From: Levilactobacillus fuyuanensis
GTDB lineage: Bacteria; Bacillota; Bacilli; Lactobacillales; Lactobacillaceae
Reading direction: 5' to 3'
Length of the DNA stretch: 34,957 bases
Assembly (NCBI RefSeq): GCF_003946395.1
Contig: NZ_RHNZ01000024.1
Span: 1 to 34,957, forward strand
Of this stretch, positions 18,297 to 34,879 are shown piece after piece (position 1 is the stretch's first letter; each line of letters begins with the position of its first letter). Under the pieces are notes generated by a model. The model saw only the letters and a list, made by a program, of their open reading frames with translations, was not told where the DNA came from and did no database searches. The position numbers were made by a program, and so were the translations under genes.

Positions 18297-18356
18297 TGAC
18301 GGCCACTCCTTTTTTAAAGTTATTAGATTTCCTTTTATGGCAAGAATAACGAAAGC

Positions 18357-18384
18357 GGCCACTGAAAGCAAGTTTCCAGTGACC
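18357..18384 (-). terminator. Hairpin upstream of pspC, weak terminator candidate
   Basis: Arms GGCCACTG and CAGTGACC form an 8-base stem with one mismatch and an extra AAA/TTT pairing around the loop. On the minus strand it is followed by the interrupted tract GCTTTCGTT, so termination would be weak. It lies 60 bases before the pspC start and may insulate that gene from pst read-through. Confidence 0.35.
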
Positions 18385-18424
18385 GTTCGTCTAAATCTTC
18401 ATCTCAGGTTAAGCTTTGGGTAGC

Positions 18425-18490
18425 TGTTGTCGCCTGCGGTTGCCAGAATTCCGACTGCTGTGGGCAATACAGAGGTAAGCAGTGCCTTAC
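18425..18490 (-). repeat. Partial structured repeat element (3' end only, A')
   Basis: Read on the minus strand it holds GCCCACAGCAGTCGGAAT followed by TCTGGCAACCGCAGGCGAC, the same 3' core as the other elements of this family, plus a small hairpin (GGTAAGGCA CTG CTTACC). The 5' half expected for a full copy is absent. A complete copy (18492-18658) adjoins it, so it may be a remnant into which, or beside which, another copy was inserted. Confidence 0.55.
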
Positions 18491-18491
18491 C

Positions 18492-18658
18492 GGGCAGTGG
18501 CAATCAACCGGAACGCGGTGGGCGGACGTCCAGAGCCAAAGAGCGGTCTCTGAACTTGCTTTGAACCTCTGAGAACCGAGTTTCAAAGACACCAGTTCTC
18601 TAAGTGGTAAAGCCCACCACTAAGAGAACTCCCACGGCCGAGTTGATTGCCACTACCC
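18492..18658 (-). repeat. Structured intergenic repeat element, copy A
   Basis: A 167-bp element closed by a 17-bp stem (GGGCAGTGGCAATCAAC with GTTGATTGCCACTACCC, one mismatch). Inside are a long hairpin (AGTTCTCTTAGTGGT with ACCACTTAGAGAACT), a TTTGAAAC/GTTCAAAG hairpin, and on the minus strand the family motif AGACCGCTCTTTGGCT. No open frame of note. It lies in the 734-base gap between phoU and pspC. The function is unknown; the fold is seen directly. Confidence 0.7.
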
Positions 18659-18722
18659 TCACGGCTTACATCCATTTGGCCCCCGCACCACTACTACATA
18701 TACTGATTAAACCTGTGATACC

Positions 18723-18748
18723 AAAACAGCAGTCCAAATTGACTGCTG
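18723..18748 (-). terminator. Hairpin terminator for the pst-phoU transcript
   Basis: An 8-bp perfect stem (CAGCAGTC, 6-base loop, GACTGCTG) is followed on the minus strand by TTTTGG. It lies about 280 bases after phoU, beyond structured element B, and before copy A. Confidence 0.65.
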
Positions 18749-18824
18749 CAAAACATGGTTCTATTGGATGGCTCACGTGATGACTGTCCCATCAGCAAAT
18801 GGAATGGTTTCAAAAACTTATCCA

Positions 18825-19007
18825 GCCGCAGACAGCCAGGAATGTAACCGGCCGTGTCAACTGTGTTAGCTGGCGTTTCTCGCCAGGTTACACAGTGGGA
18901 TGTGTTTGAAGCTTCACGTTTTCTGTGAGGCTTCAAACCAAGGTCAAAGACCGCTCTTTGGCTTTGACCGGTCCCCACAGCAGGTGGAATTTCTGGCTGA
19001 CGGAGGC
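18825..19007 (+). repeat. Structured intergenic repeat element, copy B (best-preserved)
   Basis: A 183-bp element closed by a 19-base stem (5' arm GCCGCAGACAGCCAGGAAT, 3' arm at 18989-19007, four mismatches). Internal hairpins are GTAACC...TGGCGTTTCTCGCCA...GGTTAC, GTTTGAAGC...GCTTCAAAC, and GGTCAAAGACC-type with CTCTTTGGCTTTGACC. The 3' core GGTCCCCACAGCAGGTGGAAT is shared with copies C and D. It is followed by a T-run, so it might end transcription from the left. It lies 24 bases from the phoU stop, on the opposite strand to the gene. The function is unknown. Confidence 0.75.
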
Positions 19008-19030
19008 GACAGTTTTTGCGAATCATGTCG

Positions 19031-19708
19031 CTAGTTGGGACTGTCTGAATTGGCGGGATTAAGTTCGATGATCTGGCCAGACTTCAAGTAAACAATCCAC
19101 TCGCACACGTTCGTCACGTAATCCCCGATTCGGCTCAAGTCCTGCGCCACATTGAGATAGATGGAGGCCCCGGTCTCGAAGGCTGGGTCCATCCGCATTT
19201 GTTGATAACTGTCCGCCCGAATCTGGTGATTCAAGTGGTCCAGTTTTCGATCGACTTCTGCCAATTCACGTGCCCCGTGTTCGTCCTTGTTGACGTATGC
19301 TGTCAAGACATCGCGAATCATTTGCGTGGTGATCTGGCTCATCTCACCGATCAACTGCTCAAGCACCGGAATCTTCTGCTTACTCCCAAACTTAATGGCG
19401 GAGTGGGCCACATTTCTCGCATGATCCGCTGCCCGTTCCAATTCCGAAACGGCCTTCAAGATCGTGACAATTTCTCGTAGGTCGGTCGTCACCGGTTGGT
19501 ACAACGCAATCATTTCAAAAGTTTTCTGTTCCAACGCAATTTCACGTTGGTTGATCTCGTGGTCGTGGTCAATTAATTTCTGTGCCGCAACGGCATCACG
19601 ATTCATAAAAGCATCAACCGCTTGCTGGACGACTTCACTGACCAACATGCCCATTTCCGTGAAGTCAGCGTCTAGTTCTGCTAACTCATCATCAAACAAT
19701 CTGCGCAT
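19031..19708 (-). CDS. phoU: Phosphate-specific transport system accessory protein PhoU
   Basis: A 225-residue helical protein made of two similar halves, each with the PhoU metal-binding pattern (E/DxxxD: ELERAADHARNVAHSAIKFG in the first half, DLSRIGDYVTNVCEWIVYLK in the second). PhoU dampens phosphate uptake and mediates contact between the Pst transporter and PhoR when phosphate is plentiful. It is the last gene of the pst operon, 11 bases after the second pstB. Length is normal. Confidence 0.97.
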   Translation of the reverse strand: MRRLFDDELAELDADFTEMGMLVSEVVQQAVDAFMNRDAVAAQKLIDHDHEINQREIALEQKTFEMIALYQPVTTDLREIVTILKAVSELERAADHARNVAHSAIKFGSKQKIPVLEQLIGEMSQITTQMIRDVLTAYVNKDEHGARELAEVDRKLDHLNHQIRADSYQQMRMDPAFETGASIYLNVAQDLSRIGDYVTNVCEWIVYLKSGQIIELNPANSDSPN

Positions 19709-24139: not shown

Positions 24140-24228
24140 TATAGCCCAATCACGCAACTTTTTTTGGATAAATAGGTGTCTTCCCCTGATTACTGGGGCG
24201 GCTAACTACTGATTGGACTGTCTAGTTC

Positions 24229-24400
24229 GTCTGTGGCTGTCAAAGATTCCGCCTGCTGTGGGGACCGGCAAAAGCCAAAGAGCTGTCTTTTGCCTCGACT
24301 TGAAGCCGTCAAAGTTCAGACGTCTTCAAGCTCGTCCCATGACCTAAACTGACAGAAAACGTCAGCTAAGGTCATCGTCACGGCTGGCTGCACCTCCGAC
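24229..24400 (-). repeat. Structured intergenic repeat element, copy C
   Basis: Read on the minus strand it contains AGCTCTTTGGCTTTTGCC, GGTCCCCACAGCAGGCGGAAT and, upstream, hairpins GACCTTAGCTGACG...CGTTTTCTGTCAG and CTTGAAGACG...GGCTTCAAG, in the same order as copy B. The 5' outer arm has decayed, so the closing stem is poor. Boundaries are approximate. It lies between the surface-protein gene and the PhoP boxes of pstS. Confidence 0.65.
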
Positions 24401-24487
24401 CTCCTCCGACTTAGGTCAACTCTAACTACAACGAGTGACGTCACCTTCCAAAAACACCTCAACCAGGCAAAAGGATCCCAATCCAAA

Positions 24488-31227: not shown

Positions 31228-31316
31228 AGTGGTTGGCTCCTTTTTATGTTTTGTGGTTTTCATTTTTCGTTTTGTACCTTTTCGGTTCGTAGTTTTATTG
31301 GCTACGTTGCCGAAAC

Positions 31317-31428
31317 GTGGTCTCCGAGGCAGCCGATTCCGCTTAACCCCGCTAAGCCAAAAATCCAGACCCGGGATTTTCACCTTAGCGACGTTAATGC
31401 TCGTCGGCTAACCAGCCTTGGAGACCAC
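31317..31428 (-). repeat. Structured intergenic repeat element, copy E, between secA and prfB
   Basis: A 112-bp element closed by a perfect 9-bp stem (GTGGTCTCC with GGAGACCAC), then AGCCGA/TCGGCT, and an inner hairpin CGCTAAG...AAAATCC...GGATTTT...CTTAGCG. On the minus strand TTTTTGGCTTAGCGGGG and GCGGAATCGGCTGCCTCGGAG align with the 3' part of copies B and C, although the CCCCACAG core is changed. It looks like a diverged family member. It is transcribed only if secA or prfB transcripts cross it. Confidence 0.6.
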
Positions 31429-31435
31429 TCTTTTT

Positions 31436-34710: not shown

Positions 34711-34853
34711 GCCGGAGGCAGTCAGGGATGGCGCCAACCGTGGGACGCGTTTGGAAAATCGCCGGGCCTTGGCGAGATTTCAAACCGAGCCGGAAGCCCG
34801 CTCCTCGGCTGTAGGCGGTCCCCACAGTGGCAGAATCCCTGACTGCCGCAGGC
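34711..34853 (+). repeat. Structured intergenic repeat element, copy D
   Basis: A 143-bp element closed by a 19-bp stem (GCCGGAGGCAGTCAGGGAT with ATCCCTGACTGCCGCAGGC, two mismatches). Inside are GTTTGGAAAATCGCC pairing with GGCGAGATTTCAAAC, a small AGCCG/CGGCT hairpin and the core GGTCCCCACAG at 34817-34827. The paired changes between this stem and that of copy B (for example CAGTCAGGG versus CAGCCAGGA) keep the pairing. It lies close to the right terminal repeat. The function is unknown. Confidence 0.75.
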
Positions 34854-34879
34854 GAATGCCCATTAACTTTCTGGTTGCA

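Follow-up and report, generated by a model that had tools for sequence, protein, structure and literature searches.

The bcr repeats of the Bacillus cereus group are interspersed, group-restricted sequences of 100-400 bp, of which bcr1 reaches up to 130 copies per genome (PMC6542083). For bcr1, a common structure has been predicted, and its copies lie between genes (PMC2267715). The mobility of bcr repeats was linked to TTTAT motifs (PMC6542083), and some bcr families are found on plasmids. BOX, RUP and SPRITE of Streptococcus pneumoniae are short, highly paired and present in 30 to 125 copies; BOX is modular, the TIR is hybridised in BOX and RUP, and both give target-site duplications (PMC3049150). 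Screens of intergenic regions gave MRSC, multicopy structured motifs with inconsistent orientation (PMC11109978). Efa-1 of Enterococcus faecalis is a 163-nt structured intergenic family with 65 copies, while Lac-1 of L. johnsonii, the sole Lactobacillus in the 2008 survey, lies in coding sequence (PMC2267715).

By kind, the repeat family described here from Levilactobacillus fuyuanensis is nearest to bacterial interspersed structured repeats of this sort (bcr, BOX/RUP and MITEs). Like bcr1-bcr18 it is interspersed, structured and intergenic, and it resembles Efa-1 and MRSC as a multicopy structured motif; these likenesses are of description only, as given in the passages cited. Enterococcus faecalis is in the same bacterial order as the Lactobacillaceae. 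BOX and RUP are set apart by their target-site duplications, of which the present family showed none; the present family is also G+C-rich. MITEs are likewise short and non-coding, with inverted ends and a high copy number, but our family is without a target-site duplication or an identified transposase, and it shows flanking inverted repeats and selection on a fixed strand. For the REP/REPIN-RAYT system, recognition of a folded single strand is one possible reading; compared with REP/REPIN, the fold here is far larger and branched, and Y1_Tnp genes do not track the repeat. Passages of PMC2267715, PMC3049150, PMC6542083, PMC10969869, PMC11109978 and PMC2864571 served for these comparisons.

The analysis started from an earlier annotation made from the letters alone (the sequence-only reading) of a window of 34,957 nt, which is the whole of contig C17 (NZ_RHNZ01000024.1) of the home genome (G000, 2.72 Mb). 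That reading knew of no named family with this core, which stands for Rfam 15 and for the open-licence literature. The Rfam check gave no match in the window at the gathering threshold, and three matches with E≤5 were below threshold and outside the repeats. A literature search returned no paper on the repeat among open-licence papers; the string "lactobacill" is absent from the main text of PMC8632094, PMC11109978 and PMC10969869, and PMC11109978 is also without "brevis".

We read and folded 30 loci, and 26 full-length copies were aligned to build the covariance model R1. A second model, R2, was built from 19 copies of the A-type subfamily. The 26 training rows of R1 include copies B and C of the window (C as L006) and exclude A and D, while copy A is among the 19 rows of R2, so that its R2 match holds by construction. 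The features of the window are as follows.

18423..18464, minus strand: truncated B-type 3' end adjoining copy A, its 3' end outward (sequence reading; weak R1 match at 18431-18464, E 0.94)
18483..18664, minus strand: copy A, A-type subfamily, three hairpins (R2 188.9 bits; 3' end toward a pspC-like gene)
18657..18825, no strand: spacer of the divergent A/B pair, 169 nt, 5' ends facing (R1 coordinates)
18786..18818, plus strand: left arm of a copy-specific inverted repeat flanking copy B (alignment score 24 against the reverse-complemented right arm)
18826..19008, plus strand: copy B, B-type subfamily, full length (R1 180.4 bits; fold z -7.1)
19011..19041, plus strand: right arm of the inverted repeat flanking copy B, overlapping the very end of phoU (19031-19708, minus strand), stop codon included
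24228..24409, minus strand: copy C, B-type, full length (R1 188.3 bits; fold z -5.2)
34712..34854, plus strand: copy D, B-type variant without hairpin 1 (R1 104.5 bits; fold z -5.1)

The sequence-only reading had proposed six copies, A to F, with a common order of parts, lying in intergenic gaps in both orientations. An unfiltered run of R1 on the window matched A, B, C and D, confirming one shared architecture for these four; A and C are on the minus strand, B and D on the plus strand, and all four are intergenic. Copy A was placed by R1 at 18492-18656 on the minus strand (50.7 bits, E=2e-13; fold z -7.3). The 3' end of copy B is 22 nt from the stop codon of phoU, to which the copy is antisense, and an ORF of 110 aa in the mechanical ORF list (18694-19026, minus strand), which our gene scorer passed over, spans it. 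The start of pstS lies 193 nt downstream of the 3' end of copy C. Copies E and F are not members, as R1 had no match up to E=10 at either. Copy E (31310-31435, upstream of prfB) is a separate, very stable foldback with z -8.9, and the fold of copy F is matched by its shuffles (z +0.76; 151 of 200 shuffles fold as well). The truncated B-type 3' end at about 18423-18464 and the paired arrangement had been overlooked.

The distance from phoU to the pspC-like gene is 141 nt in the L. hammesii locus (L092) and about 730 nt here (18297-19030), mostly repeats. At syntenic loci, phoU has 97-99% identity to L. hammesii, L. parabrevis and a MAG. The contig ends (1-78 and 34880-34957) form a perfect 78-bp inverted repeat with a AAAACCACCCGTT/AACGGGTGGTTTT hairpin, probably a repeat where the assembly broke.

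The family is real, and its size is far above the five or six copies first noted. A core pattern allowing up to 3 mismatches occurred 104 times in the home genome, and the same pattern reversed occurred once. R1 found at least 149 copies in the home genome. From an R1 listing of 237 matches in fetched home-genome stretches and the window, weaker opposite-strand matches over stronger ones were removed by hand, leaving 172 non-overlapping copies. Six of the ten R2 matches in the home genome lie outside these stretches, giving a total of at least 178 copies.

The covariance-model search of relatives that had been proposed as a check, run with stricter filters, gave R1 matches in 34 of 35 Levilactobacillus genomes, home included, with copy numbers per genome that are lower bounds, and in none of 23 genomes from elsewhere in the order. 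R2 matched 8 of 246 genomes of the order, home included, and under strict filters no match fell beyond the Lactobacillaceae. The other seven genomes belong to four other genera of this family and have 41, 32, 21, 21, 17, 12 and 4 matches (E≤0.001). Carriage as plasmid or phage cargo was rejected for the copies tried, since three copies had no match in 72,556 plasmid records and one copy had none in 50,697 phage records; such absence is unusual for an active element. Nearest-neighbour identity among 116 copies had a median of 86% and a best value of 93.6%, indicating no recent transposition. The element is apparently inactive now.

The core is 164-193 nt long in the 116 copies with at least 140 bits. 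It is closed by a long interrupted outer stem, inside which an inner stem pairs CCGTG with CACAG. The interior consists of a first hairpin followed by a GGGAC/GTCCC stem around two further hairpins, and individual hairpins are lost or exchanged between copies. The G+C content of copies is 0.47-0.69, with a median of 0.60. The A-type subfamily comprises many copies that score weakly with R1 while keeping the order of parts. R2 matches B-type copies and R1 matches A-type copies, indicating that the two subtypes are related. A minimal form of the element is seen in short variants that have a single internal hairpin or none (L157:2480-2541, L172:2001-2103, L228:2001-2096 and L190:2001-2095), and GGCGCC lies beside the outer stem in three of these four.

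RNAalifold on the 26 aligned copies gave 56 consensus pairs, of which 33 have changes on both sides, against a mean of 19.9 in shuffled alignments and 6-11 in slid controls. The cells that pair amount to 96.8% (84.3% shuffled, 31.6-43.4% slid), and covariation was 0.399 compared with 0.165 in shuffles. Thus stems do vary between copies while pairing is kept, as had been suspected, and the both-sided changes together with the core pattern counts exclude a chance origin of the family.

G-U and A-C mismatches are one change seen from two strands, so that they should be equally frequent if only double-stranded DNA mattered. Base-pair tests were made on the 134 of 172 copies with at least 100 bits. 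In the MAFFT-only alignment of these 134 copies, pairs that covary, being of two or more types and at least 85% Watson-Crick, had 119 G-U and 34 A-C mismatches. When mismatch states were counted at pairs with at least 85% Watson-Crick, those present in four or more copies were 17 G-U and 3 A-C (16:1 in the CM alignment), those in two or three copies 12:11 (13:11) and those seen once 17:18 (17:17). This contrast between common and rare, which counts states that are partly non-independent when shared, and in which alignment errors could swell the rare class, suggests that one fixed strand was fold-selected during spread and that inserted copies decay near-neutrally. The shared G-U excess fits RNA or ssDNA alike. 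Selection on the fold, one of the suggestions of the sequence-only reading, is accordingly seen during the spread of the family, and is undetectable in each resident copy.

We consider that these Lactobacillaceae repeats are non-coding, non-autonomous foldback mobile elements whose spread passed through a folded single strand (RNA or ssDNA), with a probability of roughly 0.55. The mismatch asymmetry supports the single-strand selection step. The strongest rival is that the repeats are resident cis-acting RNA structures, i.e. UTR elements that stabilise, cut or insulate transcripts and are selected in place, with the pairs insulating genes. The shared-variant G-U excess would be in keeping with it. 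The private mismatches, with no preference for G-U, show no constraint in place, and at the level of cells the ratio of G-U to A-C was 98:33 for copies facing a stop codon and 59:32 for copies facing a start, so that the strand with the excess does not depend on whether the transcript of the neighbour would be sense or antisense. We regard this rival as unlikely, though deserving of weight.

Part of that weight comes from placement. Context was counted on 138 or 172 copies, with gene borders from a home-made ORF scorer instead of a standard gene finder. By these borders, any overlap with a predicted ORF is at most 25 nt in 170 of the 172 copies, and the remaining two overlap short doubtful ORFs by 63 and 81 nt. 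The 3' end has a median distance of 36 nt to a facing stop codon and 107 nt to a facing start, and the medians on the 5' side are 367.5 nt (stop) and 432.5 nt (start). The gene is farther on the 5' than on the 3' side in 61 of 71 single copies and in 59 of 61 paired copies, which have another element on the 5' side. Of the 44 pairs of neighbouring copies up to 421 nt apart, 41 are divergent, so that their 5' ends face each other (two are --, one ++, none +-).

Pair counts in other genera take in all 148 R2 matches. All 10 pairs of G233 are divergent, as are both pairs of G251; in eight of the G233 pairs the spacer measures 139-156 nt. All five pairs in G246 are same-direction, and G198 has one each of -+, -- and ++, so the divergent-pair rule is not universal. 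In the four G233 pairs aligned (L239, L308, L314 and L321), the near-constant spacers contain a two-way terminator-like hairpin that is conserved, and in this genome the divergent pair may be one unit.

The intergenic location, in which the 3' end mostly points to the closer gene border, the divergent pairs, and the conserved hairpin in the G233 spacers all speak for resident cis-acting RNAs, as does the absence of the copies tried from plasmids and phages. Against them, terminator-like hairpins in the home genome are not one-sided, being found on the 5' side of 26 of 133 copies, on the 3' side of 27 of 133 and in 7 of 40 spacers. With this 5' and 3' balance, the transcription-insulating repeat that the sequence-only reading had offered is not supported. 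The same home counts ruled out a terminator-centred placement, with elements around a two-way terminator, which G233 had suggested. The 3'-toward-gene rule is left unexplained by mobility itself.

The sequences flanking the copies were tested on 138, 134 or 116 copies. Beyond the core, 116 copies share a weak consensus, GGTTAAAA-R-YTAGCTTAG on the 5' side and ACAATTTTTAACC on the 3' side. The flanks of one copy complement each other more than they complement the flanks of other copies: 43 of 134 copies exceeded the 95% control level at -45..-19/+14..+40 (6.2 expected) and 39 of 134 at -60..-30/+25..+55 (6.4 expected). At -90..-60/+55..+85 the count was 6 of 134 (5.1 expected), and at 120-150 nt it was 8 of 133 (3.9 expected), which we take as noise; significant inverted repeats are within about 60 nt. 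Inverted homology over 300 nt around single copies was rejected as unconvincing, with 9 of 73 exceeding the 95% control level and gappy alignments. Among 44 copies with a stop codon no more than 40 nt away, the arm extends into coding sequence in 15 (1.9 expected). L200:2001 has beside it the final 45 nt of the neighbouring gene in inverted, decayed form, stop codon included.

Snap-back copying and template switching at palindromes are mechanisms that yield inverted copies. The inverted flanks may have arisen through snap-back copying when the element inserted, or through template switching at the palindrome afterwards. Insertion into palindromes already present may also have occurred, though the arms inside coding sequence (the 15 of 44 above) speak against it. 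The repeated spread of a foldback element, as put forward at the outset, fits these copy-specific inverted repeats.

An ordinary MITE would be moved as double-stranded DNA with terminal inverted repeats by an IS transposase, the fold being a by-product of palindromic ends. In its favour, the copies are many, short, non-coding and intergenic, and a terminal inverted repeat, GGTTAAAA...TTTTTAACC, is weakly conserved in addition to the outer stem, as in MITEs. Direct repeats of at least 8 nt between 40-nt flanks occurred in 4 of 116 copies and in 13 of 464 control pairings, i.e. there was no target-site duplication, and the flank repeats are inverted rather than direct. The copies are not AT-rich, and a strand-polar G-U excess is unexpected for a double-stranded process. 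We give the MITE explanation only a small chance.

The search for a mobilising gene covered RVT_1 and Y1_Tnp and found none. The home genome has no RVT_1 (PF00078) match, while 9 of 33 genus genomes have one; a reverse transcriptase acting in trans was rejected on this ground, with room left for a past or unrelated one. Y1_Tnp genes occur in 22 of 33 genus genomes without tracking repeat copy number. An IS200-like Y1 transposase in trans was rejected as well: it is absent in G001, G011 and G016, which have at least 44 R1 matches each, and present in G021, which has no R1 match. A SINE-like retroelement, in which folded RNA would be reverse transcribed from its 3' end at a gene-side nick, is improbable in our estimation. 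The hairpin cDNA would snap back and copy the adjacent target strand, and such copying would leave the element with an inverted gene-side flank (coding sequence, stop codon included) and no direct target duplication.

We also compared orthologous sites. L. parabrevis is 86-94% identical to the home genome over the stretches compared. Of 13 home copies aligned to it, six are plain orthologues (L180:2001, 8395 and 8821; L215:6421, 7368 and 7664), and five keep ends and position with one, two or all hairpins different (L203:2001, 6236 and 8419; L215:5998; L180:5682). L234:9324 differs throughout from its counterpart, and L234:5490 is internally deleted. A-type and B-type copies are swapped relative to L. 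parabrevis at L203:2496, at L234:2001 and at the phoU site, probably also at L234:9608 (by position only), and at the pstS site between L100 and L103. That many copies are kept at orthologous positions is in keeping with a cis-acting RNA function; that single sites show internal deletions and subtype swaps counts against it.

At the phoU site, the A-type copy of L105 (10943-11119) is inverted relative to those of L106 (10873-11049) and L120 (10911-11087). Compared on their own strands, the L105 copy and the L106/L120 copies are 88% identical, against at most 78% for any other compared copy. The genomes are about 93% identical yet carry the copy in opposite orientations, and the change is, as judged from these alignments, an in-place inversion.

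A comparison of empty and filled sites, also proposed earlier, gave no clean empty site among some syntenic loci and four element-rich L. parabrevis stretches. At the apparent absences inspected, part of the element was kept, the other subtype was present, or the site was too diverged to judge; they were mostly internal deletions. The short phoU gap of L092-L094 may be truly empty, though in genomes too distant for its junctions to be placed.

These site histories bear on the possibility that there was no dedicated mobility, and that long palindromes seeded once increased in number through template switching during replication and through gene conversion between copies. Hairpin-wise exchange and in-place inversion would follow from it. 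The flank arms are also DNA-like, with no G-U excess (62 G-U to 87 A-C over 90 arms), and at L234:5490 they differ between home and L. parabrevis by paired, compensatory changes (CGCAGAGTTA/TAACTCTGCG vs CGCTGGGTTA/TAACCCAGCG). On the other hand, the shared-variant G-U excess and the defined ends are left unaccounted for, and more than 100 dispersed copies per genome are not readily produced in this way. We attach little credence to it.

Of the options that the sequence-only reading had listed, a non-autonomous mobile element fits best. We infer mobility in trans of a folded single strand as follows. A trans-acting enzyme would have recognised a folded single strand of fixed polarity, and this strand would have been placed beside genes with its 3' end gene-ward. 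New copies would have been dead on arrival and then subject to neutral decay. The long palindrome at each site would drive inverted copying of flanks, internal deletion, in-place inversion and hairpin-wise exchange. Through such palindrome-driven DNA events copies would stay heterogeneous, and one subtype could replace another at the same spot.

The family has at least 178 copies in a single genome of 2.7 Mb, is present in 34 of the 35 genomes searched of a food genus, and lies outside Rfam and the open-licence literature searched; annotators of lactobacilli would do well to give it a name or to mask it. Its inverted flanks, specific to each copy, suggest that insertion or repair followed a route that differs from the footprint usually left by a transposase. 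Comparing shared with private mismatches offers a general test for folded-single-strand selection in spreading repeats, and the family is a large natural data set on how structured non-coding bacterial repeats multiply.
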